Shown: positions 2,136-32,351 of the stretch, in pieces
Layout: every line of letters starts with the position of its first letter
How positions within the stretch are numbered: position 1 is the first letter of the stretch
Virus record (IMG/VR): IMGVR_UViG_3300021963_000389
Location: 1-34,314 of that record
From: a virus
Direction: 5' to 3' (one strand)
DNA length: 34,314 nt
Notes under the pieces: model-generated
Database searches by the model: none
Seen by the model: the letters and a program-made list of their open reading frames with translations, nothing else
What the model was told of the DNA's origin: nothing
Made by a program: the position numbers and the translations under genes

Positions 2136-2405
2136 TTAAGGTTTATATTTTTTATTTGAAAATCCTTTTATAAATGAAGATAATTCTTTGGAAGCGTTTC
2201 CCTGAGCATCCTTAAATTCACTCTGACCTAACTGAACCTTTGGTTTGAATCCCTCCGTAGAAGTAAAGTTTTTTTCTTGAAGACTCGTAGGAATCGTTGA
2301 CGCGCCCGCCGTTTTTGAGTCAAAAGCACCTCCTGATTTGGTTTGGTTATACCTCTGTTCCAGTGGTGTATTTATAGATTCTCTTTTTATAGGTGTGTTT
2401 GCCAT
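2136..2405 (-). CDS. Small hydrophilic protein of unknown function, last gene of the virion cluster
   Basis: 89 residues, rich in Ser, Thr, Lys, Gln and Gly, with no predicted membrane segment, no cysteine and no recognisable motif. The sequence looks largely disordered (SKTAGASTIPTSLQ, GFKPKVQLGQ). It follows the FG-GAP/dockerin gene by 16 nt and is itself followed by a strong terminator, so it is probably co-transcribed with the tail genes. A TATTTAT element lies 5 nt before its ATG. A minor virion or chaperone-like role is possible from position only; I do not recognise the family. Confidence 0.6.
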   Translation of the reverse strand: MANTPIKRESINTPLEQRYNQTKSGGAFDSKTAGASTIPTSLQEKNFTSTEGFKPKVQLGQSEFKDAQGNASKELSSFIKGFSNKKYKP

Positions 2406-2421
2406 ATATTATAAATATCAT

Positions 2422-4875
2422 TTAAATGTCAAATCGTATAATAAAATTTAAAGGAAATTTTCCTTCGTTTTTTATAGGCGTTCCTAACTTTGCGACTCCA
2501 ATCAAATCCAAATTGTTATATAAACCTATAGTTGTAATATATGGAGACAGTAATGAACCCGTAGTGAAGTTTGAACCAGAGTCATATCTGGACTGAAAGA
2601 CATCCTTAATAATAAATTTATTACCTTTTCCTGTAATAATATCCAGATAATCTTTAGCAGAGGAATATAAACTTCTAACCCCCACGCTTTTGCTGGTTAT
2701 AAAAGAATCATAATTACTAGCAGTTAGAGTATCAGCAAAATATTTCCATATTATATAAAGATCCCTAATATCAGCAATTCCGTCGCCGTTTATATCCAAC
2801 TTAGTATCTAAGTTATTAATGATATAATCAAATTCGTATTCGGTTAGTATGGAATCTGTCAAATTAAATAAAGTTTCATTTTTTATAGACTGTGTTACGT
2901 GATATAAAAATTTACTTTTTTCCACTACATTCTCAAATCCAATTGGATATTCCAACTGCAATAGATTCCACCAAGTTTCGTTGCCGTTAAACTTTTTATA
3001 TATTGCTCTTAAAATTTTGTCACAATCTTGGAAATCAAATTTTCCATTTTTATTTAAATCTAAATCAAATGAAGTTGGAACATATGCGGTAGGATTTGTA
3101 GAATAATTGAATTCTCCGGGATTTACAGTGCATATTATTTGTTTTTCATACAAAGAAGTTTTGCTATTGTATGAAATGTCATAAATTGGTTCATCATTTA
3201 CATCGCTTTCAAATATGTGATCAAATATAGAACCAGAATTTGAAAACACCATCTTTCCGTTTCTATAAAACACATTTCCTACATGGTGGTGTGATTCAAA
3301 CTCGTTTAAATTGAATATGGAAAAATCGCCATTTAAATTTATCGCCAAATCATCCCTGTCTTCAACTATTTCAACTATTCTATTTGAATCCGTCAAAGCT
3401 ATAGGAGAGCCGACAATTAAATTTTCTTTGTGGATAGAAACGTCATGTGCAAAAAAGTTAAATGGATAGCCAAATTTCTTTCTAGGTTTGAATTTGGCGT
3501 ATACGTTGTTCCATCCATCATCTTGTTTTTCATAGATATAAAACATTCCCAAGTAGTCATTTTCAAAAATCTCATCACAATCTTCGGCTTTAAATAAAGT
3601 ATTCTGTATATAAGATGAGGAAAATTCGGACAAAAATTTAGGAGACGAAATTAAAATCTTGTCTTCAGATATATCTAGAGAGTGTCCAAATCTATTGAAT
3701 TTAAAAGAATCTTCATCACCAAACAATTTAGTTTCTTTCCAAAATGAGCTAGTCGTGTCATCTATTTGACACTTTATTAAATCATAGATGTATACACACC
3801 CATTTCTGTAACAGTTAGAACCACTGAATTCTTTGTAAATTCTATCATACGGCGCTCCGACTGCGACTGTCACATCTGTAGAAGAAGAACAGTAAATAGA
3901 CACGGAATTTCCATAACCATCGGGAAGAGTAATTACAGGATCATATTGTGGAACCGGTAAAAATTTTAAGTTTTCCGGAGTTCTGTTAGACGTGAAAACA
4001 TTAGTTAATTGCCAATTATCTGACCCCGACACATATTCATATAAAATTGCTTTTGAATTAGCATTTAGTATACTTCCATTTCCCACTATTAGTTTATTAT
4101 AATTTTTATCTAACTTCAAACAAGAACCAAATAAATTTACGCCGCTAGAAGTTATATAACTGTGATATTCATATCCATTTGAAGAACTTTTAAACAAAAA
4201 TACAGATCCACCATTCGAAGTGTAAGGACTTCCAACAGCAACAAAGTCTTGGTTTATTGATACTGACCAACCAAATGAATTTGATCCCGTATCTACAGAA
4301 TCAGTTACATCTGAAGCATATATAGATTGTACCAGAGAATCTTCAACCGAAAGATCGTGAATTTCAATAACACCTTCATCATTTCTTATAACATTGTCAA
4401 TATTTAATAGTGTATATGTTAATTTTGTAGAACCAATTGCACATGAATTTTCATATATGTCTAAACACCTTCCAAAATCGGATGATAGAATTAAAATATC
4501 TTCGCCGGTAGCAATTAGAAAACTTGAACTGTCAAATGAACTTATGGTATCCGAATATGATCCTGAACTGCCCGTCTCCGTCAATAAAGGATAACTTCCT
4601 GAGGTCAATCCTGTGATAGAGCTGGTAGTATTATTCTCAGTATATAAAATGTAATCATCTCTCAAAGATGAAACTTTTATAGTTTTATGATATTTGAACC
4701 TATTATTGACTGTAGAATCATATTTGTATACATCCACCGACCCATATTCAAGAATGGGATTGTTGGATGAACTGTCAAAAGAATCGAACGAGGGATTGCC
4801 AATCAAAGCATATATATCCCCCATAGCCACAGAATAACCAAAATCTTTTTTATCTATGTAAATTTTTTTGTGCAT
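2422..4875 (-). CDS. Virion adhesin: FG-GAP-like beta-propeller plus two dockerin-type calcium loops
   Basis: 817 residues, probably a tail-fibre or baseplate-attached adhesin. A repeated pattern FG-x-S-(V/L)...(I/V)-x-(V/S)-G/S-x-P appears near residues 12, 201, 248, 320, 395 and 473 (for example FGYSVAMG, FGWSVSIN, FGHSLDIS), the signature of an FG-GAP/integrin-type propeller. Two dockerin/EF-hand-like loops follow: DLNKNGKFDFQD near 605 and DINGDGIADIRD near 692, both of form D-x-N-x-(N/D)-G-x-x-D-x-x-D, so calcium binding is likely. The C-terminus (TTIGLYNNLDLIGVAKL to the end) matches the C-terminus of the 370-residue virion protein at 7632-8732. The start codon shares one base with the upstream stop (TAATG). 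The propeller class is my inference from repeats; receptor binding is inferred from position. Confidence 0.7.
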   Translation of the reverse strand: MHKKIYIDKKDFGYSVAMGDIYALIGNPSFDSFDSSSNNPILEYGSVDVYKYDSTVNNRFKYHKTIKVSSLRDDYILYTENNTTSSITGLTSGSYPLLTETGSSGSYSDTISSFDSSSFLIATGEDILILSSDFGRCLDIYENSCAIGSTKLTYTLLNIDNVIRNDEGVIEIHDLSVEDSLVQSIYASDVTDSVDTGSNSFGWSVSINQDFVAVGSPYTSNGGSVFLFKSSSNGYEYHSYITSSGVNLFGSCLKLDKNYNKLIVGNGSILNANSKAILYEYVSGSDNWQLTNVFTSNRTPENLKFLPVPQYDPVITLPDGYGNSVSIYCSSSTDVTVAVGAPYDRIYKEFSGSNCYRNGCVYIYDLIKCQIDDTTSSFWKETKLFGDEDSFKFNRFGHSLDISEDKILISSPKFLSEFSSSYIQNTLFKAEDCDEIFENDYLGMFYIYEKQDDGWNNVYAKFKPRKKFGYPFNFFAHDVSIHKENLIVGSPIALTDSNRIVEIVEDRDDLAINLNGDFSIFNLNEFESHHHVGNVFYRNGKMVFSNSGSIFDHIFESDVNDEPIYDISYNSKTSLYEKQIICTVNPGEFNYSTNPTAYVPTSFDLDLNKNGKFDFQDCDKILRAIYKKFNGNETWWNLLQLEYPIGFENVVEKSKFLYHVTQSIKNETLFNLTDSILTEYEFDYIINNLDTKLDINGDGIADIRDLYIIWKYFADTLTASNYDSFITSKSVGVRSLYSSAKDYLDIITGKGNKFIIKDVFQSRYDSGSNFTTGSLLSPYITTIGLYNNLDLIGVAKLGTPIKNEGKFPLNFIIRFDI

Positions 4876-7601
4876 TATGAATAGTAATTATAATTAGGAT
4901 TATTTTCCACATAATGATAAACAAAATTCTCATCGGAAATTATAGAATTTATATTAGATGAAGTCACATAGCCAGATCCACTTAAATAAAATTTATCAAA
5001 ATTGGAATTAGATAAATTCAATTCGTCTATAAATTCAGGTATCACAATTCTTTCAAAGTCTATCGCCCAGTTATTATGAATTTGATTATCTGTAACGGAA
5101 TCCACATACACGACAAGTTTCTTTTGATATTTGTCATAGGAAACAAATCTTCCTGTCATAGTGACACTGTAATCTCTAGAACCAGTCTGTCCCATTGAAA
5201 TATTAGAATCTAATTTTGTAATATAAGTTGTAGTGTTTATATATCCACCATAATGTTCATCCGACAGATTCAGAGATCCAGTATCTAAATAAAATTCTTT
5301 TACCCCAATTGACATAGAAACCTCGTTTGACTGTCCTGAAGCAATATACGAATATATTTCTTTGTTGTTATATTTTTGTGATAAAACCTCCAATCCAGAA
5401 AACATCGGTGTATTGTGGGGGTTATTTGATTTTGGAATCTTGACCTTGTAATCCGTTAGATTATATTGTTTTGTAGTATTTAAATTTATATTAAATTGTA
5501 TATCAGTGTTTTGTGTAGTCGTGCCTTTTAGTGATTTATTTGAAGTGTAATCATTATAGTATACTAACTTTTGATATTTTACATTTGGATCTAGAATGGT
5601 AAATTTTCTTCCCATTCCGATGTTGTAAAACATATATTTTGTTATAAATGGATCCTCCCCCCACGAAAATGCAAATCTAGGAGATTTTCCAAATCTAGAA
5701 TCCAACAAGGTAGTATCCGTGTATCTTTTTATAAAAGACAAACTCCTATTTGCTTTGGCAATAACTGAAAAAACATTGCTCATGCCTTTTGTGGCAACAG
5801 ATGTAGGAGGGACAACTGTAGACCAGTCTGAGTTTATATTTTGTCCAAAAGGTATAAAAGATTGAGAATAATCGTTTTTTCCCCAAGATACACATTCTCC
5901 ATTATTTTTTACAATAATGGTATGATCGTCTCCACAATCGACATCCAAAATATTAGTATCATGTGAATTTGGAATTTTTGATTGACTATAAGTTGAATCT
6001 ACTCCCCAAGAATATAAATTTCCGTTGTTATCTAGAATCATTCCATGAGATCGCCCGATTGATATCTTTTTGACGTTAGTTTTCTGTGGAATTGACGTGA
6101 AAAATGAACTGGCTGAACTGTGTCCGAATCCATAAATTAATCCGTTTTTATGAATTGCAATACTTCCACTTGGTCCCGCCTTTATGTAAGAATAATTGTT
6201 ATCGACAGATGTGGGTATAGAGCCGGTATAAGAAGATTCACCCCAAACATAAATTTTACCATTTTGATCTATAGCAATTATATGATGGTTTCCGGCGGAT
6301 ATATCATCAATGATTCCATCAAAATTTGGAACTGAACCGGTAATTGAACCACTACCCCATACAGTTAAACTTCCATTAGTTTTTAAAACTGCAACGAAAT
6401 CATTGCCACATTCTATTTTTTTAAAGTTTCCCAGTAAATTTTGATGGGGAATATTATTTAAATTATTAGAACCGTCACCAATATACATTGTGTAAGAATC
6501 TGTAGAAATCGGAGGTATTATATCTTTTTCATCATAACCTCTTACATAAAAGGTATCGGCGACATCTCTATTTACAAAAATTATATTATTTTTATAATAT
6601 TGCCAGTTCAAGTCAGTTAAATCACCATCATTTATAGAAAAGTTTCTTTGATTAAAATTAATATAAGAACAAGAATGAAAATAATTTATATCTTTATTTT
6701 GATCTGATACTATTATTCCAAACACATTTTCTTTTACATATAAATTTCCCTGACCATCATCGATTATAGTATAAGTTTGATCGCTAGAATCTTCTATAAT
6801 TTCCACGCTGTTTTCCATTATTCTGTCTCCGAAATATGCCTGTGGAATCGTTACGACTTTAATTTTGTCATAGAGAACTCTACTTTTTCCATCTAAAAAT
6901 GTATCTAGGTTTTCTAATCCCAATAATTTAGTTGGATCTTTGGAATCATTATAAAACAAATTTTTTATCTGATCATATGTTATTCTCTTGTATGTATCAT
7001 TTAAATTCTGTTGTTCAATATTCGGGTTAAATTTTACAAACTGTTCAACTTTTAATCCGTCTTCTATGGTTACAAAATTATCATCGGACTGTTCTAGACA
7101 AAGATTACATAGAGAATTTGTAAACGGAACATCAATCGACAAATCAAATCTATATGGGGGACCATTGTAAGGAGCTTTGCTATCGCTTAATTCAGTATAA
7201 GATTCCAGTAACCAATAATCCGTAGACCCTTCCATTTGTATGTCTATTTCTCCACTACTAGTATTCTCTATTATTATCGAATAACTTGGTTGAAAAACCA
7301 AAGAAGATGAACATCCAAATTGCCATCCATCGCCATAGTCTATAAACTCTAACGCGAGATTTTTTACTGTAAATGATGAAACTCCAGTAACCTCCGCCTC
7401 AGTATTAAATACTGTATTACCGGATTCTGATACAAATGAAGCAGACGTCGACTCCGAAACAAACAAAGCATTGTTATAATAATAATCAAAATCCGCATCG
7501 CCCATCAAAAAGTTTGAATTTGATTTGCTTGTTGATCTCCATCTTTTTGATACTACAAACGGAATCGAAGTTATATCATCTTTATTTAGACTCTTAATCA
7601 T
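4875..7601 (-). CDS. Virion adhesin with RCC1-type beta-propeller repeats
   Basis: 908 residues. Between about 385 and 590 lie five RCC1-like repeats with the core pattern G-x-x-(H/F)-x-x-x-(I/V/L)...G-x-(I/L/V)-x-x-(W/F)-G, for example GNHHIIAIDQNGKIYVWG, GRSHGMILDNNGNLYSWG and GDDHTIIVKNNGECVSWG. Flanking segments are Ser/Asn-rich beta-strand-like sequence without a signal peptide. RCC1 propellers serve as protein- or ligand-binding scaffolds; in a tail-gene context an adhesin or fibre tip is the likeliest role. It is the neighbour of a second, FG-GAP-like propeller protein with a one-base start/stop overlap. Its own start has a TATTTAT element 6 nt upstream and no clear Shine-Dalgarno site. 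Confidence 0.7.
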   Translation of the reverse strand: MIKSLNKDDITSIPFVVSKRWRSTSKSNSNFLMGDADFDYYYNNALFVSESTSASFVSESGNTVFNTEAEVTGVSSFTVKNLALEFIDYGDGWQFGCSSSLVFQPSYSIIIENTSSGEIDIQMEGSTDYWLLESYTELSDSKAPYNGPPYRFDLSIDVPFTNSLCNLCLEQSDDNFVTIEDGLKVEQFVKFNPNIEQQNLNDTYKRITYDQIKNLFYNDSKDPTKLLGLENLDTFLDGKSRVLYDKIKVVTIPQAYFGDRIMENSVEIIEDSSDQTYTIIDDGQGNLYVKENVFGIIVSDQNKDINYFHSCSYINFNQRNFSINDGDLTDLNWQYYKNNIIFVNRDVADTFYVRGYDEKDIIPPISTDSYTMYIGDGSNNLNNIPHQNLLGNFKKIECGNDFVAVLKTNGSLTVWGSGSITGSVPNFDGIIDDISAGNHHIIAIDQNGKIYVWGESSYTGSIPTSVDNNYSYIKAGPSGSIAIHKNGLIYGFGHSSASSFFTSIPQKTNVKKISIGRSHGMILDNNGNLYSWGVDSTYSQSKIPNSHDTNILDVDCGDDHTIIVKNNGECVSWGKNDYSQSFIPFGQNINSDWSTVVPPTSVATKGMSNVFSVIAKANRSLSFIKRYTDTTLLDSRFGKSPRFAFSWGEDPFITKYMFYNIGMGRKFTILDPNVKYQKLVYYNDYTSNKSLKGTTTQNTDIQFNINLNTTKQYNLTDYKVKIPKSNNPHNTPMFSGLEVLSQKYNNKEIYSYIASGQSNEVSMSIGVKEFYLDTGSLNLSDEHYGGYINTTTYITKLDSNISMGQTGSRDYSVTMTGRFVSYDKYQKKLVVYVDSVTDNQIHNNWAIDFERIVIPEFIDELNLSNSNFDKFYLSGSGYVTSSNINSIISDENFVYHYVENNPNYNYYS

Positions 7602-7631: not shown

Positions 7632-8732
7632 TTAGAAGTCTAATCTCACCCTAATCAACAATTCGTTGGTAAAATCTTTTCTTGTGGGTCTACTCAATTT
7701 AGCGACCGCAATCAATTCATTGAGTTCATTATATAAACCAACAGTAGTAACGAATGTTTTTGGTTCAGTTTGAAGGCCGGATATTATTTCCCCCTTCGTA
7801 TTGTTTTCATCCGTGGTTTGATAAATAAAAGAGGGATTGTTTGAAAAATTGTAGTCTTGATTTTTAACTCTTATAAAATAATGAGATGAGGGAACCAGTT
7901 CGGTTTTTCTTACTCGCATGAGAGCTGACGGAGCAAGATTGCCTGCGCCTTTTAATTTTTTAAATAACTCTTGATGGTTTACTATTGTTGATGAGGTAGT
8001 GTTATCAAATTGATGACCGGCATATTCAGCCAATTTATTTGCATTCAAAACAATAATTCCATTTTTTGGATAAAATAAACCCAATCCTCTATAATTTACA
8101 TCGAAAGCACTATTTTGACCTATCGCTTCATTGTAACTTCCTGAGATTATTTGGTAAACCAATCTTTGTTCCTTTTGTTCCGCAGAACTTAGAATAGAAT
8201 ATTCATCAATTAAACTTAAACTCGATGACGTGTTAGATCCTGAGATAGTAAAGTTCCATTGACCCCTATCGATTTGATCCTTCATCAAATCTGAACTGAA
8301 AGCAATCACGAATATTTCCGAGCTTGTAATATAAGTGGAAGAACCCGCACTGCCTGTTTTAAAACTAAATTTTCCATCCAAATCTGATATTCCCAATAAT
8401 AAGTTTTTGTATTGGGCGTAAATTGCAGCTGAACTAGAAAATACCAAATTAGAACCACTTACTCCACCACCGTTCACAGAACCATAAGAAATTGAAAATA
8501 ATACTTGTGGGTTGTTTATATTGTTGTTATAAGCGTTAGTATAATATAATCCATTTAAAACGTCATAAATTCCGTTTGAACCTGTTAACTTTGATTGTGC
8601 GCTGGACGTTTGAAAAAAAGACTGTGAAATCTTTATGTCGCCTCCAGGAAAATATCCACTCGATACTCCCGTGGTTTTTCCAGAAATTATATCAGTCGAT
8701 TCAAATGGTTGATAAATTTTAAAATTTGCCAT
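7632..8732 (-). CDS. Virion structural protein sharing a C-terminal module with the FG-GAP adhesin
   Basis: 366 residues, beginning MANFKIYQPFES. Rich in Ser, Gly, Asn and Tyr, as is typical of tail or baseplate proteins. The last 45 or so residues (TTVGLYNELNELIAVAKL, ending in VRLDF) match the end of the propeller protein encoded at 2422-4875 (TTIGLYNNLDLIGVAKL, ending in IRFDI), so both probably dock to the same virion partner or share a folding module. A longer frame would use a TTG at 8744 inside the preceding gene; the ATG at 8732 lies 4 nt after that gene's stop and gives a better protein start. No enzyme motif seen. The exact position in the tail is unknown. Confidence 0.7.
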   Translation of the reverse strand: MANFKIYQPFESTDIISGKTTGVSSGYFPGGDIKISQSFFQTSSAQSKLTGSNGIYDVLNGLYYTNAYNNNINNPQVLFSISYGSVNGGGVSGSNLVFSSSAAIYAQYKNLLLGISDLDGKFSFKTGSAGSSTYITSSEIFVIAFSSDLMKDQIDRGQWNFTISGSNTSSSLSLIDEYSILSSAEQKEQRLVYQIISGSYNEAIGQNSAFDVNYRGLGLFYPKNGIIVLNANKLAEYAGHQFDNTTSSTIVNHQELFKKLKGAGNLAPSALMRVRKTELVPSSHYFIRVKNQDYNFSNNPSFIYQTTDENNTKGEIISGLQTEPKTFVTTVGLYNELNELIAVAKLSRPTRKDFTNELLIRVRLDF

Positions 8733-8736
8733 AATT

Positions 8737-9369
8737 TTATTCAACAGTTACGGTTACAGGTATGCTGACTCCGCCACCACTCTCATTTCCTATGATGGTT
8801 AATGTGGTTGTGGTTGTTTGTTGTAGTTTTGAAGAAGGCGTAAAAGCGAATTCCAATCCCACCAAAGCTTGTGAATTTTCTGAAGACGTATCACCTGCAA
8901 ATCCTGATACAGTCCCTACAGCTGTAGTCACAGGAGACTCAATTGTTACAATTAAAGTTCCAACTTTAGAATTTCCCAATATAGCCGTATATCCACCATT
9001 AGCATTATAGTTAGATGGAGTAGTCGATGGGGTGATCACAATACGACCATTATATGTAGATACGACATTAATTGAAGATTGTGCAATTGTAACAGTAGGA
9101 ATAAAAGTAGTTCCTTGATCCAAAGTAACCAATTTATACTTCATCACTTGAGTTTCATCAACACTTGGCTCAAAAATTGGAGTATTTATTAAGGCAATCT
9201 CCTTTAAATCTTCAGAATCGGCATTTTCGTTATAAAGACCATAATTAATTTCATCGTCCGCTAAAGCGAATGATGTTATTTTTAAACTTCCGTTTTTGGA
9301 AAGAAGTTCTCTTCCTTTTTTTGTTAAAACCGCGTCAACTACGATGGATTTATTGTCTAAGTATGCCAT
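8737..9369 (-). CDS. Virion structural protein with Ig-like C-terminal half
   Basis: 210 residues. The N-terminus (MAYLDNKSIVVDAVLTKKGRELL... SFALADDEINYGLYN) resembles a family often found in large myoviruses among tail genes. From about 115 on the sequence is Thr/Val/Ser-rich with alternating hydrophobic residues and ends VSIPVTVTVE, which suggests an Ig-like beta-sandwich decoration or attachment domain. A TATTTAT element lies upstream of the start, and the next gene starts 4 nt after its stop. No catalytic motifs. The role as a virion protein is inferred from composition and neighbours. Confidence 0.65.
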   Translation of the reverse strand: MAYLDNKSIVVDAVLTKKGRELLSKNGSLKITSFALADDEINYGLYNENADSEDLKEIALINTPIFEPSVDETQVMKYKLVTLDQGTTFIPTVTIAQSSINVVSTYNGRIVITPSTTPSNYNANGGYTAILGNSKVGTLIVTIESPVTTAVGTVSGFAGDTSSENSQALVGLEFAFTPSSKLQQTTTTTLTIIGNESGGGVSIPVTVTVE

Positions 9370-9416
9370 ATTTCATTTAATAAATAGTTTTAATTTTTAT
9401 TTTTATTCTTTTTTAT

Positions 9417-12400
9417 TTACAACCCTCTGCCACCAAATAATACGTTTGGTTGGAAATCATCTGGAATTCTATATTTAGTATATTCCTTTACAACTCCAAC
9501 GTTTTCTGTTATTTGAGATAATATAGAGTTATTATTTACTTCTCCGTTAGATATATATAAAGTTGCATTATTAAATCTTCTCTTATTTTCTATATCTACT
9601 ATCGGACCGTTATACGGAGATGAAAATCTTGGAAGTTTTCTTAAATTTCCATACCAAGGTAAGGTAGGCAATTTGGATATAGATGACGTGGTATAATTTC
9701 CTGCTAAAGCTTGACCGACATCTATAGTAATCACAGGCTCCCTATCTTCGTTGCCAGGCTCATTGATAGTAGTGAATCTGTTTTGTCTACCCTTTCCAAA
9801 GTAATCCGGCGGAAAATCCACAGTGTCAAGGCTGCCCGTGACATAATACAATTCTTTTCTCAATGACAAGTTCTTTCTACTTATATGAGGAAAATCCCTC
9901 AAGTCAGTTAAAATTTTATATGCCGAAGAAGTTATAAAAGAACTTCCACTGTTGACAAGTTCTACGGAAATAAAATCTTTAATATAATTCGAGGAAGTAA
10001 TATTATCCGGAGAATAACTCAGGGTTTTCTTATTAGTTTTAGTATAAGCAAAATACTTTTTTCCTTCAATATCAACTAAACCATTTAAATCCACGAATAT
10101 ATTGTTCATATATTTATCTGGCGTATCATTTATACTTTTGAATTCTTCAAACGATGAGTTATTAAAAGATAAATTGGTTTCGTGTAATTCTACATCAATA
10201 ATAGAATTTGTGATAGATGTAATTGTAGAACTATCTGTATCACCCAGTATGGTAGTTAAATCTACACTGGAGGTAAAAACTTGTAGGTTAGTTATATTAA
10301 CAGGCTTTTCTTCAATACGATTTCTTTCCAAAATTGTAGGTTCTATCAATAATCCGTTATAAACCTTGTTTCTGGCAGGTAATAAGTTTTTAAGGGTATC
10401 AAAAATACTTGCATCTACATATGTTTTATAAATTGTAAATAATTCGTTAAATAGAATTTTATTTACATAATTTTCTCCATAATAATACTCTCTTAATTTT
10501 TCCAACCCTAAATATTTTCTACCAAATCGTTCTCTAGGATCAGAAATAGACGATACAATTTCATAATCACCAAAGAAATTCAAAATTGATTTATTTCTTT
10601 CGTGAATAGGCGATAAAAATATTCCAAGTTTGTTGGTGTCGACATAATGATCCTCGTCATTTTTATAAGTCTGAGATTTAAGAGGAGACAGAGATTGATC
10701 ATAAGTATGAATTGAATTTTTCTTTACTTTATTATTTTCAAACCTACTAGGACCTACTTCTCCTGTAAAATATTCATTTGTAATATTAAATTCTTTTGTT
10801 TGATGTGGAAATACTGAATATGATTCGGTGAAACAACTTGAAGTATTGTAGTAAGAATAATAATTACTTCCTGAAACATTATATATCTTGGCATAAATGT
10901 TTGGATAATATGGGTTAACGTTGTTTACTGTATATCCTGATTCCGTAGAAGAACTGTATGATATATCTATTGGTATTCCTGAGTCAAATCTAAATAATAT
11001 ATCTTCGTAACTAGAGGATGGTTGTCCTTGATAATAATAATTAAAATTTTTACATTTCAAATAAAAATTTTCGTCAGACAACGCATTTCTCTGAAAAACG
11101 AATCTGTCTAAACATCCGTAAAATTTTTCTACTTTGTATTTACTCAAATTTTCATCCAAAAAATTTTCCAATAAATCAGATGTTTCAGAAATAAGACTTC
11201 CACTTTCATTCTCAGAATCCAATAAGATATTTGCAAAAGAAATAGGAATGTTTCCCAATTCAGACCCTAAATCCAAAGTCTCATTAAAATTTCCAAATAT
11301 TACATATCCACCCAAATTATCAAAAGCTTTATTCAAAGATTGACTTAAATAAAAAGTAAATTTTTTATCAATTGGGTCTATACAAAATTCGTTCTGATGG
11401 ACGCATATATCATATTTAGTAGGAGCCACGTCCTCATCTTCAGGAATTTCAAAGTTTGAATTTATTTCATTCCTTCTTATCAATATACTCATCACTTCAT
11501 TGTTAAACATATGAAATGGTTCTGTAATTACTGTTCTTGATGAAGATGGAACCGTATCGTAATCTTCTATTAAAAAATAAAGGCTGCCTAATTTTTCTGA
11601 TAATTTTATAAATCCAAAAGAATAAATCGGTAAAGAACCAGAAGTATATGTTGTGTGAATAGGAACTATTATTTTATTTAGGTTTTTATACTTTTCTTTG
11701 TCTATGTAAAGTTTAAAATCCAAAGATTTATACGGTTGTAAATTGTTTATTTCAACCCGTTCATCTAATCCACCACTGAATTCTAACAAATATTCTTTAT
11801 CTTCCACTAAATAAGATGAAGTGATTTCACTTCTCGTATATCCACCCCCAAATTCTTTAATCAAAATCATGTTATTTGGGATACCATAAATTGAAAATAT
11901 TTGTCTGAGACACTCTTCTGTTCCTTTTGTCTTATAAATTGATGGGAGATTATTTAAAATTCTTTTCCATATTGTTTTGGTCTTTTTATCCAAAGATATA
12001 GAATTTTTCAAGCTAGCTTTTTTAGAACTATCTAAGTAAGACTCCTCAATTGTCGCATCTTCTAAAATTCCACTCAAACTTGGCGGCGTGGAAAATCCAA
12101 AACTTGATAAAATATGATTAATGATATCTGAGGAAATACCCAACGAATAATCTTCTCCAACTTTTTTATAAATTCCTATGGCCGAAATATACAAATAAAT
12201 ATTATCAAAATGATGACCTATCATACACAAAAACTTCAGATATTCATCATTATTTTCATCTAGATAAACATATTCAGGAGTATTATTTACAAGCGAATCT
12301 CTATTATCTTTGTCATATTCTGATGATTCGTCTAATAATTCACTCACAAATTGAGAAGAAGATGTATCAGATATAGATTCTGTAAATTTTTTTAACGTAG

Positions 12401-24023: not shown

Positions 24024-24506
24024 TTAACTAATATTAATTTTTTTCTTTTTGACAATATTGGTAGGTTTTATCTTTTTTAACTTAATAACCAATAATCCAT
24101 TTTCAACCTTCGCATCAATCGTTTCAGTGTCAATATTTTCACTTAAACTAAAACTACGAACAAAACTACTATATTTTAGTTCACGATATGAACTACATAT
24201 AACATCGTCAGATTCATTATTTTTTGTAAATTTATTGCCTGTTATGGTTAATACTCCTGACCCCACATCCACACTAATATCTGATTTAGTTAATCCAGGA
24301 ACACCTGCCTCAATAACTACAGAATTTTCGTATTCAGTTACATTTACTTTGGGATATGCTCCTTTTTCAAAAAAATCGACACCGAATTCTTTGCTGAAAT
24401 TTGGCGAAGTTACTTTATAAAACTCATCAAAGATTTTATCGAATGGAGTTAAAAATTCGTCACGAGAAACATAACGAAACAACGGATTGTTTTTAATAAT
24501 ATTCAT
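24024..24506 (-). CDS. Small heat-shock protein (Hsp20/alpha-crystallin family)
   Basis: 160 residues. The alpha-crystallin domain spans about 50-145: YPKVNVTEYENSVVIEAGVP, GLTKSDISVDVGSGVLTITG, SFVRSFSLSENID and the closing GLLVIKLKK, which matches the family's G-x-L-x-(I/V)-x-(L/I) signature. The N-terminus (NPLFRYVSRDEFLTPFDKIF) is the usual hydrophobic oligomerisation arm. Such chaperones hold unfolded proteins and occur in many T4-like phages, where they may protect virion assembly. This is one of few genes with a clear Shine-Dalgarno site (AAAGG, 6 nt before the ATG). A TTGACA box and a hairpin lie upstream, and a terminator follows, so it is a single-gene unit. Confidence 0.92.
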   Translation of the reverse strand: MNIIKNNPLFRYVSRDEFLTPFDKIFDEFYKVTSPNFSKEFGVDFFEKGAYPKVNVTEYENSVVIEAGVPGLTKSDISVDVGSGVLTITGNKFTKNNESDDVICSSYRELKYSSFVRSFSLSENIDTETIDAKVENGLLVIKLKKIKPTNIVKKKKINIS

Positions 24507-25925: not shown

Positions 25926-26645
25926 TTAACCAGCGTTTTTTATTTTTTTAATTAAAAATTTAACCAATTTAGACCTAACTATATCATCTTCGGTAAATTC
26001 AAAGGAATAAACTCCATTTTCTTTACTTTCACTATCAGAAAATAAATCAATCATTTTCTTAAAACCACTTTTATTGCCAATGTCAGATTGATCGGGATCG
26101 CCTAATATAAATAATTTACTAAATTCACCCACACGAGTTATTAAAGTCACCAGCTCTTTAGTAGTCATATTTTGAGACTCATCTGAAATAATAACTTTAG
26201 CATTCCAATTCAATCCTCGCAAAAATCCCACAGGAACAGAATCAATATGTCCGTTTTTTTGTAAAAAATCTATGTCACCTTTGTTTAAAAACTCCTCAAG
26301 TTTGTCAAGCAAAGGTTGCAAATATGGAGCCATTTTTTCATGACTTTCTCCTGGCAAAAACCCTAACTTGCTATCGCTGCTCTCCACTGCACTTCTAATA
26401 TAAATCAAATCACTAACTTTATGTTCATTTAATAATTTTAATGCGATTAATATTGAAAGATAGGTTTTGCTAGTACCAGCAGGACCAGAAACAAAAATTA
26501 TCTTGCTTTCCTTTTTTAATCCTAATTCTAAAAACAACTTTTGTTTTTCGGTTAAAATCTGTTGTTCTTTTATGTTTATATTTAATGAAAGTTTTTTACC
26601 CTGATGAACATGTGGACTTTTGTCAGCAAATTTATTTTTTTTCAT
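25926..26645 (-). CDS. phoH: PhoH-like ATPase
   Basis: 239 residues, matching the PhoH core domain. Walker A is GPAGTSKT (54-61), Walker B VIISDESQN (151-159), and the family-typical GDPDQSD (182-188) follows. The conserved SAVESSDSKLGFLPGE segment (85-100), including the L-G-F-L-P-G motif, is also present. PhoH proteins are P-loop ATPases of the helicase superfamily and are common in large phages; their exact phage role (RNA handling or phosphate stress are proposed) is not settled. The start overlaps the end of the preceding gene by 14 nt, so the two are co-translated. Confidence 0.92.
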   Translation of the reverse strand: MKKNKFADKSPHVHQGKKLSLNINIKEQQILTEKQKLFLELGLKKESKIIFVSGPAGTSKTYLSILIALKLLNEHKVSDLIYIRSAVESSDSKLGFLPGESHEKMAPYLQPLLDKLEEFLNKGDIDFLQKNGHIDSVPVGFLRGLNWNAKVIISDESQNMTTKELVTLITRVGEFSKLFILGDPDQSDIGNKSGFKKMIDLFSDSESKENGVYSFEFTEDDIVRSKLVKFLIKKIKNAG

Positions 26646-29881: not shown

Positions 29882-30649
29882 TTAGAAACTTAACTTAACA
29901 CCAGTGGTAAAGGCCAAATTGCCCTCAAACTTACGTGCCACTAAAGCAGTGTCAGTGGTCACATATCCAACATCAACATATGGCTTCAAATACTTAATAC
30001 CAGTATAAGCCAAAGTTCCACCAGCCGTATAACTCGTGTGTTTGTCAAACAAATACGCCTCAGCTCTAGGCGTCAATTCAACTCTGCCCAAAACAAAAGT
30101 TCTGTCAACGCCCACTGTAGCACCAAATAAACGAGTGTCAAAATCCCGCGCCACCTTAACATAAGGAGTAGCCAAAACAGTCAACACAGGAAACTTGTTC
30201 AAACGCAATCCACCATACGCAGTAAGTGTATCACTAAACGCACCACCAATCATACGCTTCTCAACACCACCAACCGCCGTCATAGCAACAACGTCATTGC
30301 CAAGTCTACGTGAAACATTCGCATCAAAAATAGCCTGATCAGCATTTTCTCCACGAATAAAATAAGTAACTCCCACCTGAGGCGTCAAAATCGAATTCTC
30401 TAACGCCACCGTTGAAGCCACAAACGCACTGTTTTTCTGAAATTGCAAACCAAGATGATTCGCCCGTGTCGTATAACCAGAATCAAAAGTAACTCTCGGA
30501 GTCACCACAAATTCTGACTTCGCCACCGCCCGCGTCATCAATGAATTTACATTCGAATTAGTGTTAACTTTTGCAGACTGTGCCATTAGATCACTAAAAC
30601 CTAAGAACACAATCAAGATTAACATAATATTTTTTATTGTTTTTGTCAT
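29882..30649 (-). CDS. Secreted outer-membrane beta-barrel protein
   Basis: 255 residues from MTKTIKNIMLILIVFLGFSD. A classical signal peptide (KTIKN, hydrophobic core, then DLMAQS) is cleaved near residue 23-25. The mature part alternates polar and apolar residues (FVVTPRVTFDSGYTTRANHL, TPYVKVARDFDTRLFGATVG) and ends in F (FTTGVKLSF), the usual assembly signal of outer-membrane barrels; 8-10 strands would fit. The frame is open 14 codons upstream, but AAGGA sits 10 nt before this ATG. Phage-made barrels such as Lom of lambda change the cell surface or block superinfection, so a similar role is inferred here. It has its own terminator and two palindromes upstream. Confidence 0.75.
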   Translation of the reverse strand: MTKTIKNIMLILIVFLGFSDLMAQSAKVNTNSNVNSLMTRAVAKSEFVVTPRVTFDSGYTTRANHLGLQFQKNSAFVASTVALENSILTPQVGVTYFIRGENADQAIFDANVSRRLGNDVVAMTAVGGVEKRMIGGAFSDTLTAYGGLRLNKFPVLTVLATPYVKVARDFDTRLFGATVGVDRTFVLGRVELTPRAEAYLFDKHTSYTAGGTLAYTGIKYLKPYVDVGYVTTDTALVARKFEGNLAFTTGVKLSF

Positions 30650-30666
30650 ATTTTTTTTTCCTTTTA

Positions 30667-30706
30667 TTTCAATTGAAACTAAACTACACATTCAATTTCA
30701 ATTGAA
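30667..30706 (-). promoter_or_regulatory. Pair of palindromes upstream of the beta-barrel gene
   Basis: TTTCAATTGAAA (30667-30678) and TTTCAATTGAA (30696-30706) are identical over 11 nt with centres 29 bp apart, close to three helical turns. They lie just upstream of the Shine-Dalgarno site and are good candidates for operators bound by a dimeric regulator. No clear -35/-10 pair could be fixed, so the promoter position is not given. Confidence 0.5.
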
Positions 30707-31976: not shown

Positions 31977-32351
31977 TCAATGCTTCACCCACCCACCACT
32001 CCAATACGACTCACCATAATTGATAAATACCTCCTCACCCAACACTATCTTACGCAAAGTCTTTATGTAAATTCCACCATCAGTCGTATACCACATCGCA
32101 TTATTATTATCCGCATGATTATAAATACTCACATATCCCAACGCAATAACATAAACATCACTGCCCTGTGGAAAAGAAAATACATACTTCTTTAACTCAT
32201 ATGGCACCTCCCCCCACATAGATGCATAACTCCTTATCACAGGACTATACTCAATCACTAACCCACCCTCTAACTCACTACCACTATATACCCCCAAACC
32301 ACGCCGCTCACTATCACCCAAATATAAATTCTCATCAATAAAATACTTCAT
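31977..32351 (-). CDS. SET-domain protein, viral-type minimal form
   Basis: 124 residues, nearly only the SET domain, like the small viral SET protein of chlorella viruses. Signature parts: RRGLGVYSG (17-24) for the first SAM-contact loop, SIYNHADNNNAM with N78-H79 and N84 standing for the canonical N-H-x-x-x-x-N, and GEEVFINYGESYW (105-117) with the conserved tyrosine Y112. SET domains are SAM-dependent lysine methyltransferases. The post-SET Cys cluster is absent. The target could be a host or phage protein; nothing in the sequence says which. It is the last gene before the repeat/G-rich region and has the same strong G-over-C coding bias as its neighbour. Confidence 0.8.
   Translation of the reverse strand: MKYFIDENLYLGDSERRGLGVYSGSELEGGLVIEYSPVIRSYASMWGEVPYELKKYVFSFPQGSDVYVIALGYVSIYNHADNNNAMWYTTDGGIYIKTLRKIVLGEEVFINYGESYWSGGWVKH

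Follow-up and report, generated by a model that had tools for sequence, protein, structure and literature searches.

A conserved dockerin-like insert and a predicted integrin-like propeller in the split core protein of an uncultured phage family

Dockerins are assembly plugs of bacteria, which use them to build cellulose-degrading complexes. A Type I dockerin (PF00404) sits at the end of an enzyme and has two 12-residue calcium loops, each with Asp at position 12 and a helix after it. The propeller of the integrin α subunit is made of seven FG-GAP-type repeats, and its blades carry calcium loops of the form DxDxDGxxD. Accessory Ig-like or lectin domains are also known from tail proteins of phages, where such exchangeable surface domains are grafted on a conserved structural protein.

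The protein family described here shares this design with the tail proteins, except that the grafts are a dockerin-like domain and whole propellers. In the literature searched (open-licence papers), no paper was found that reports a dockerin from a comparable phage tail protein, and the resemblance described in PMC5967307 rests on modelling. A first-pass annotation of the 34,314-nucleotide stretch of viral DNA analyzed here (the window) had described one gene product as a virion protein combining FG-GAP-like propeller repeats with two dockerin-type loops, and both elements were found.

The 817-residue protein and its propeller

The open reading frame (ORF) at 2422-4875 is on the minus strand, starts with ATG and encodes 817 amino acids, while the plus strand of the same interval is stop-rich throughout. 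The protein is composed of a propeller and two pieces of a conserved core, A and B, with a dockerin-like insert between the pieces:

2422..4875, minus strand: 817-aa protein (propeller, core piece A, dockerin-like insert, core piece B)
3301..4875, minus strand: predicted FG-GAP β-propeller of seven repeats, integrin-α-like, residues 1-525, at insertion site 1
3088..3288, minus strand: core piece A (VGNVFY...EFNYSTNPT), residues 530-596, with HMM matches to core proteins without the EF domain
2548..3087, minus strand: dockerin-like insert, residues 597-776, at insertion site 2
3025..3060 (read 3060-3025), minus strand: putative calcium loop 1, DLNKNGKFDFQD, residues 606-617
2761..2796 (read 2796-2761), minus strand: putative calcium loop 2, DINGDGIADIRD, residues 694-705
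2425..2547, minus strand: core piece B (YITTIGLYN..DLIGVAKLGTPI...IIRFDI), residues 777-817, common to the 370-aa paralogue

The whole protein was modelled with AlphaFold2 from an input of 47 sequences, giving a mean pLDDT of 75. The propeller was predicted well, with confident β structure over about residues 1-525. The loop region was mainly helical at a pLDDT of about 80-92, with a weaker linker, and the two core pieces were below 50. Both folds, the propeller and the dockerin-like domain, are predicted ones.

The propeller was matched by Pfam FG-GAP_2 with an E-value of 2.4e-16 and 60.1 bits (cut-off 23), and seven FG-GAP-type repeat starts could be read from the sequence, at residues 12, 134, 201, 249, 321, 396 and 474. 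FG-GAP was also matched at E≤0.1 in 41 of the 47 alignment members. Both Foldseek and VIA-align placed the model nearest to integrin α chains, the latter with Z of 28-31 over 345-387 residues. Although the seven repeats are common to the two propellers, their identity is only about 15-18%, and the phage protein has no integrin partner. No integrin-type DxDxDGxxD loop was present in the window propeller before residue 530, and such a loop was seen upstream of GNVFY in 2 of the 47 alignment rows.

In some relatives the FG-GAP propeller itself carries further domains. A second β-propeller of RCC1 and DUF5122 type sits within it in locus L004 (4716-9320), and an unassigned propeller-like stretch occupies apparently the same loop in L061 (3382-6879). 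In L021 (3646-6975) an RCC1 propeller is inserted at another loop. The contigs L004 and L008 share 99.7-99.9% identity, and this protein has one RCC1 repeat (39 aa) more in one of them than in the other, near 6590-6804, which suggests a change of blade number between near-identical phages; a collapse of repeats in assembly would give the same picture.

A core protein with two insertion sites

The gene upstream of the 817-aa ORF encodes a protein of 908 residues, and its stop codon overlaps the 817-aa start by one base. A paralogue of the core family lies beyond it:

4875..7601, minus strand: 908-aa protein (N-core, then RCC1 repeats)
6693..7601, minus strand: N-core, residues 1-303 of the 908-aa protein, assigned by HMM
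5796..6440, minus strand: RCC1 repeat region, about residues 388-602 of the 908-aa protein
7632..8744, minus strand: 370-aa paralogue, ending in core piece B and without the insert

HMMs were built for the N-core (58 members, from the upstream 908-aa protein) and for pieces A and B, which flank the loops. By these HMMs, the core in the window is spread over two adjacent genes, with the N-core in the 908-aa ORF and A and B in the 817-aa ORF. The order N-core, A, B was also found on one single protein in LR756508 (a 306-aa ORF), Flavobacterium phage immuto (gp165, QQO92083.1; 357 aa) and Microcystis phage Mel-JY01 (WWT39517.1; 591 aa). None of the three has the dockerin-like insert, and their first slot is either empty or holds a LamG domain. 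In LR756508, immuto and Mel-JY01, A is separated from B by 26, 38 and 22 residues, respectively, as against 180 in the window. As a check on bias, relatives were also fetched via a different gene, a 210-aa neighbour (11 loci). A and B were in one protein in seven of these with gaps of 24-75 residues, and no dockerin-like or EF domain was found in the loci fetched in this way.

Taken over the insert-free relatives, site 2 (the A/B junction) measures 22-75 residues, and in most loop-less relatives the core is a single chain of about 310-410 aa. The first slot, at the junction of N-core and A, is 0-80 residues long in the other proteins with a detected N-core; it is filled by Laminin_G_3 in Mel-JY01 and in one uncultured locus (L124), and by the propeller in the window family. 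The comparisons at both slots lead to the conclusion that the gene encodes a core protein of phages in which two sites accept insertions. The dockerin-like domain is a separate insertion into this conserved core, independent of the propeller. The first-pass description of two loops near the end of a propeller adhesin holds in that both modules are present, but the loops belong to a domain of their own within the core.

The splitting of the core varies within the family. Among 61 insert-bearing ORFs, the N-core was fused in 5, lay in an ORF ending ≤150 nt upstream in 30 and was farther upstream in 17; for the other 9 it was unseen or truncated. In five inspected loci the propeller is an ORF of its own as well.

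The relatives were collected by a protein scan (10 loci), a C-terminal alignment scan (27 loci) and a wider-alignment scan, from which the best 80 of 158 relatives were used; many of these loci come from repeated contigs. Distinct ORFs with the common C-terminal motif (n=98, one of them without the first motif) fell into two classes by the distance from NPT to GLY, which is 30-36 residues in the class of the 370-aa paralogue and 169-194 in the insert-bearing class. The pattern used for collecting insert-bearing ORFs missed at least 11 loop-bearing loci. The combination of propeller and dockerin-like domain recurs in many related uncultured phages. In contigs of prokaryotic genomes, an alignment-based scan gave no confirmed case of the insert, and none was seen in cultured phages; tblastn with the 817-aa protein gave six phage records, all aligned solely in the core.

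Few relatives of the core come from cultured or complete phages, namely immuto, Mel-JY01, LR756508 and Rhodothermus phage RM378. Contigs of metagenome-assembled genomes that carry the 210-aa neighbour gene fall into bins of Flavobacteriaceae, other Flavobacteriales, Winogradskyella and others, which gives a weak hint of the host. The best explanation takes the phage to be large and T4-like, with relatives whose hosts or bin companions are aquatic bacteria, in several cases Bacteroidota. One core with two fixed sites, which take whole domains such as integrin-like, RCC1 and other propellers, LamG lectins and the dockerin-like module, would offer a concrete system for testing how receptor-binding surfaces diversify in large phages.

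Calcium loops and dockerin likeness of the insert

The two loops of the window have 76 residues between them, close to the 75 or so first estimated, and are 88 residues apart from start to start. Two such loops appeared in none of 20,000 shuffles of the 817-aa protein and one loop in 0.25% of them, and no dockerin-type loop was present in the other frames of the window. Conservation was measured on 62 aligned sequences including the window, reduced to 48 representatives below 90% identity and to 47 after a truncated row was removed. In loop 2, D1, N/D3, D/N5 and D12 were kept in all 47 and D/N9 in 42. Loop 1 was slightly more varied, with D1 in 44, N/D3 in 43, D/N9 in 43 and D/N12 in 47. The start-to-start spacing was 72-92 residues throughout the set. 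Residues outside the ligand positions were conserved as well, including F10 and R18 of loop 1 (41 each) and W17, K18 and Y19 in the helix after loop 2 (43, 45 and 44, respectively). Four representatives have lost loop 1 ligands, suggesting that not every member requires a pair of calcium ions.

The loci contain 689 distinct ORFs with a length of 100 aa or more, and two loops were present in 39. Four of the 39 were outside the collected set and end ≤6 bases from the end of the locus match, and they therefore represent the same gene. The two-loop ORFs thus belong to the family of the 817-aa protein, which, together with the shuffles and the pair's persistence in the 47 representatives, argues against chance matches in a protein rich in Asp and Asn. 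The low Pfam score of the window protein alone (see below) would fit such matches, whose probability we consider negligible; a chance origin of the pair is already refuted by its conservation among relatives. The loop module is real, conserved and structurally sensible.

The relation of the module to dockerins was assessed at the level of profiles, loop pattern and structure. Against Pfam Dockerin_1 (cut-off 22.9 bits), the full window protein scored 13.6 bits and the loop region alone 19.1, both below the cut-off, and a six-frame search with both loops summed reached 24.9, which is above it. Dockerin_1 was matched by 44 of the 53 members of the region alignment (E≤0.01) and by 34 of the 47 full-length rows, more than any EF-hand family in both alignments. 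When ten members were run singly against Pfam, four were over the Dockerin_1 cut-off, three were listed below it and three had no family at E≤0.001. PHROGs and NCBIfam models did not match the insert-bearing family apart from one marginal hit. In a profile search of the PDB with the region, a cellulosomal dockerin came first (4fl4, E 2.4e-5) and 2y3n was matched with an E of 9e-5; EF-hand proteins of calmodulin type were also among the matches, with SCP in second place and GCAP1 likewise present.

The ligand pattern D1, N/D3, D/N5, N/D9 and D12 is present in both window loops, with a few loop 1 exceptions among the 47 representatives. By sequence, the loops also fit the dockerin calcium pattern of n, n+2, n+4 and n+11 given in a cellulosome paper (PMC5429695). 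Type I dockerin is the best family match by HMM and heads the structural realignment described below. However, the dockerin loop starts are 35 (4fl4) and 33 (2y3n) residues apart in the alignments, compared with 72-92 in the phage proteins, where a helical insert lies between the loops. Since the spacing does not fit, the domain is, as read from its sequence, dockerin-like and not a proven dockerin.

Folded alone with AlphaFold2 (53 sequences), residues 595-762 gave one compact helical domain with a pLDDT of 88.3 and a pTM of 0.84, and the structure prediction proposed at the outset returned both a propeller and a folded loop region. Foldseek found no match to the region at E≤0.001 in the PDB, where only Mcl-1 and globin noise appeared at E≥0.2, or among the viral structures of BFVD. 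In a second look, 609 chains were realigned with VIA-align. Just seven reached Z≥2, headed by two dockerins: 8x39 with Z 3.9 over 70 residues and 4fl4_A with Z 2.7 over 68 of 68 residues, each spanning both loops. For helical bundles a Z under about 13 may reflect just a common arrangement, and the dockerin values are below this. The structural match to the dockerin fold (loop-helix-helix-loop-helix) is therefore weak and suggestive, and no proof.

A true dockerin that aids adsorption through a cohesin, carried by the host surface or by some other protein, would agree with the Dockerin_1 matches and with the dockerins at the head of the PDB profile matches. We nevertheless consider it quite improbable. 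The loop spacing speaks against it, and the helix residues stay conserved among phages of many different sites, unlike what adaptation to differing host cohesins would give. Furthermore, the cohesin-like partner on the virion that the first reading had envisaged did not appear: Cohesin (PF00963) had no match at E≤1 in any of 14 related phage records (the window and 13 contigs of 74-369 kb, completeness unknown), while in the controls 2 of 14 genomes matched, one over the cut-off. The phage domain further differs from Type I dockerins in lying within a core protein. The conservation of a dockerin-like module in a widespread family from the tail region of uncultured phages suggests that phages share the calcium-loop solution.

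Gene neighbourhood and proposed role

Genes for gp6-like and gp25-like baseplate-wedge proteins lie upstream of the 817-aa gene in a one-direction run, and a RuvC-like gene followed by a DNA primase gene lies downstream. From this position downstream of the wedge genes, we infer that the 817-aa protein is a virion protein. Proteins secreted by bacteria commonly carry propeller and dockerin domains, which would suit a non-virion protein acting in secreted form or on the cell surface during infection. This is very unlikely, given the run with the wedge genes, the core-family paralogue next door and an N terminus with no visible likeness to a signal peptide. The order of RuvC-like gene and primase is apparently also found in LR756508 (by eye, from translations); there, an ORF at 8608-9837, which we take to be TnpB/IS605-like, lies between the core protein and the RuvC-like gene.

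A small gene directly follows the 817-aa ORF:

2136..2405, minus strand: 89-aa protein, candidate partner of the dockerin-like domain

The ends of this protein are conserved (SLxxRY and KYxP). Homologues were found in 106 of 131 sequence sets (the window and 130 loci, duplicates included) and in none of 14 insert-free loci, some of which are too short to show one. The insert-bearing loci without a match were L006 and L007 (with their duplicates), L048, L086 and L091. In L006 and L007 the position is taken by a repeat-rich ORF with similar ends, and in L048 by an ORF (6899-7435) that by eye resembles a response regulator; the sequence of L086 stops just past the insert-bearing gene. The 89-aa protein is thus a candidate partner of the dockerin-like domain, or else a clade marker.

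We propose that the 817-aa protein would be the C-terminal part of a modular protein of the tail periphery. The conserved core, composed of the N-core from the upstream gene and pieces A and B, would form the attachment part, and the seven-bladed integrin-like propeller at the N-core/A junction would form the outward part, which probably binds a ligand. At the A/B junction, the two calcium loops and their following helices would pack in dockerin fashion, separated by an additional helical stretch. Calcium would be needed for the folding of this domain, which may then dock within the virion to the split core, to a neighbouring copy or to a phage-encoded partner such as the adjoining small protein. 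Calcium binding by the loops and docking by the domain are both inferred, and the reading towards which we lean slightly is that the domain folds, or docks within the virion, in a calcium-dependent way. The same locus bears on why adsorption may need calcium.

The loop pair could instead be a calcium-stabilized structural insert which stiffens the core and has only its own chain as partner. Its place between A and B within the core, the folding of the region as a single compact domain, the survival of the insert in the four representatives with lost loop 1 ligands and the lack of a cohesin in the related phage records are all consistent with this. However, the strong conservation of the post-loop helix residues is perhaps beyond the needs of fold upkeep, and a separate 89-aa gene co-occurs with the insert. 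We regard purely structural stiffening as possible, at a distinctly lower probability than a role in folding or docking.

The preferred role in folding or docking has a more specific form, in which the dockerin-like domain is a virus-encoded, calcium-dependent plug-in that docks a phage partner, possibly the small repeat-bearing protein of the next gene. This is a tentative and unlikely proposal. If true, propeller-type receptor-binding heads would be swapped or assembled on the virion like cellulosome enzymes on their scaffold.

Several other genes of the window were noted. The product of 29882-30691 (269 aa) has a signal-peptide-like N terminus and a β-barrel-like sequence ending in F; no Pfam family was above cut-off for it, and it is possibly a phage-encoded outer-membrane protein. 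A SET-domain protein (Pfam SET, 1.1e-07) is encoded at 31977-32351, and the phage also encodes an Hsp20 (24024-24506; 1.5e-18) and a PhoH (25926-26645; 1.4e-49).
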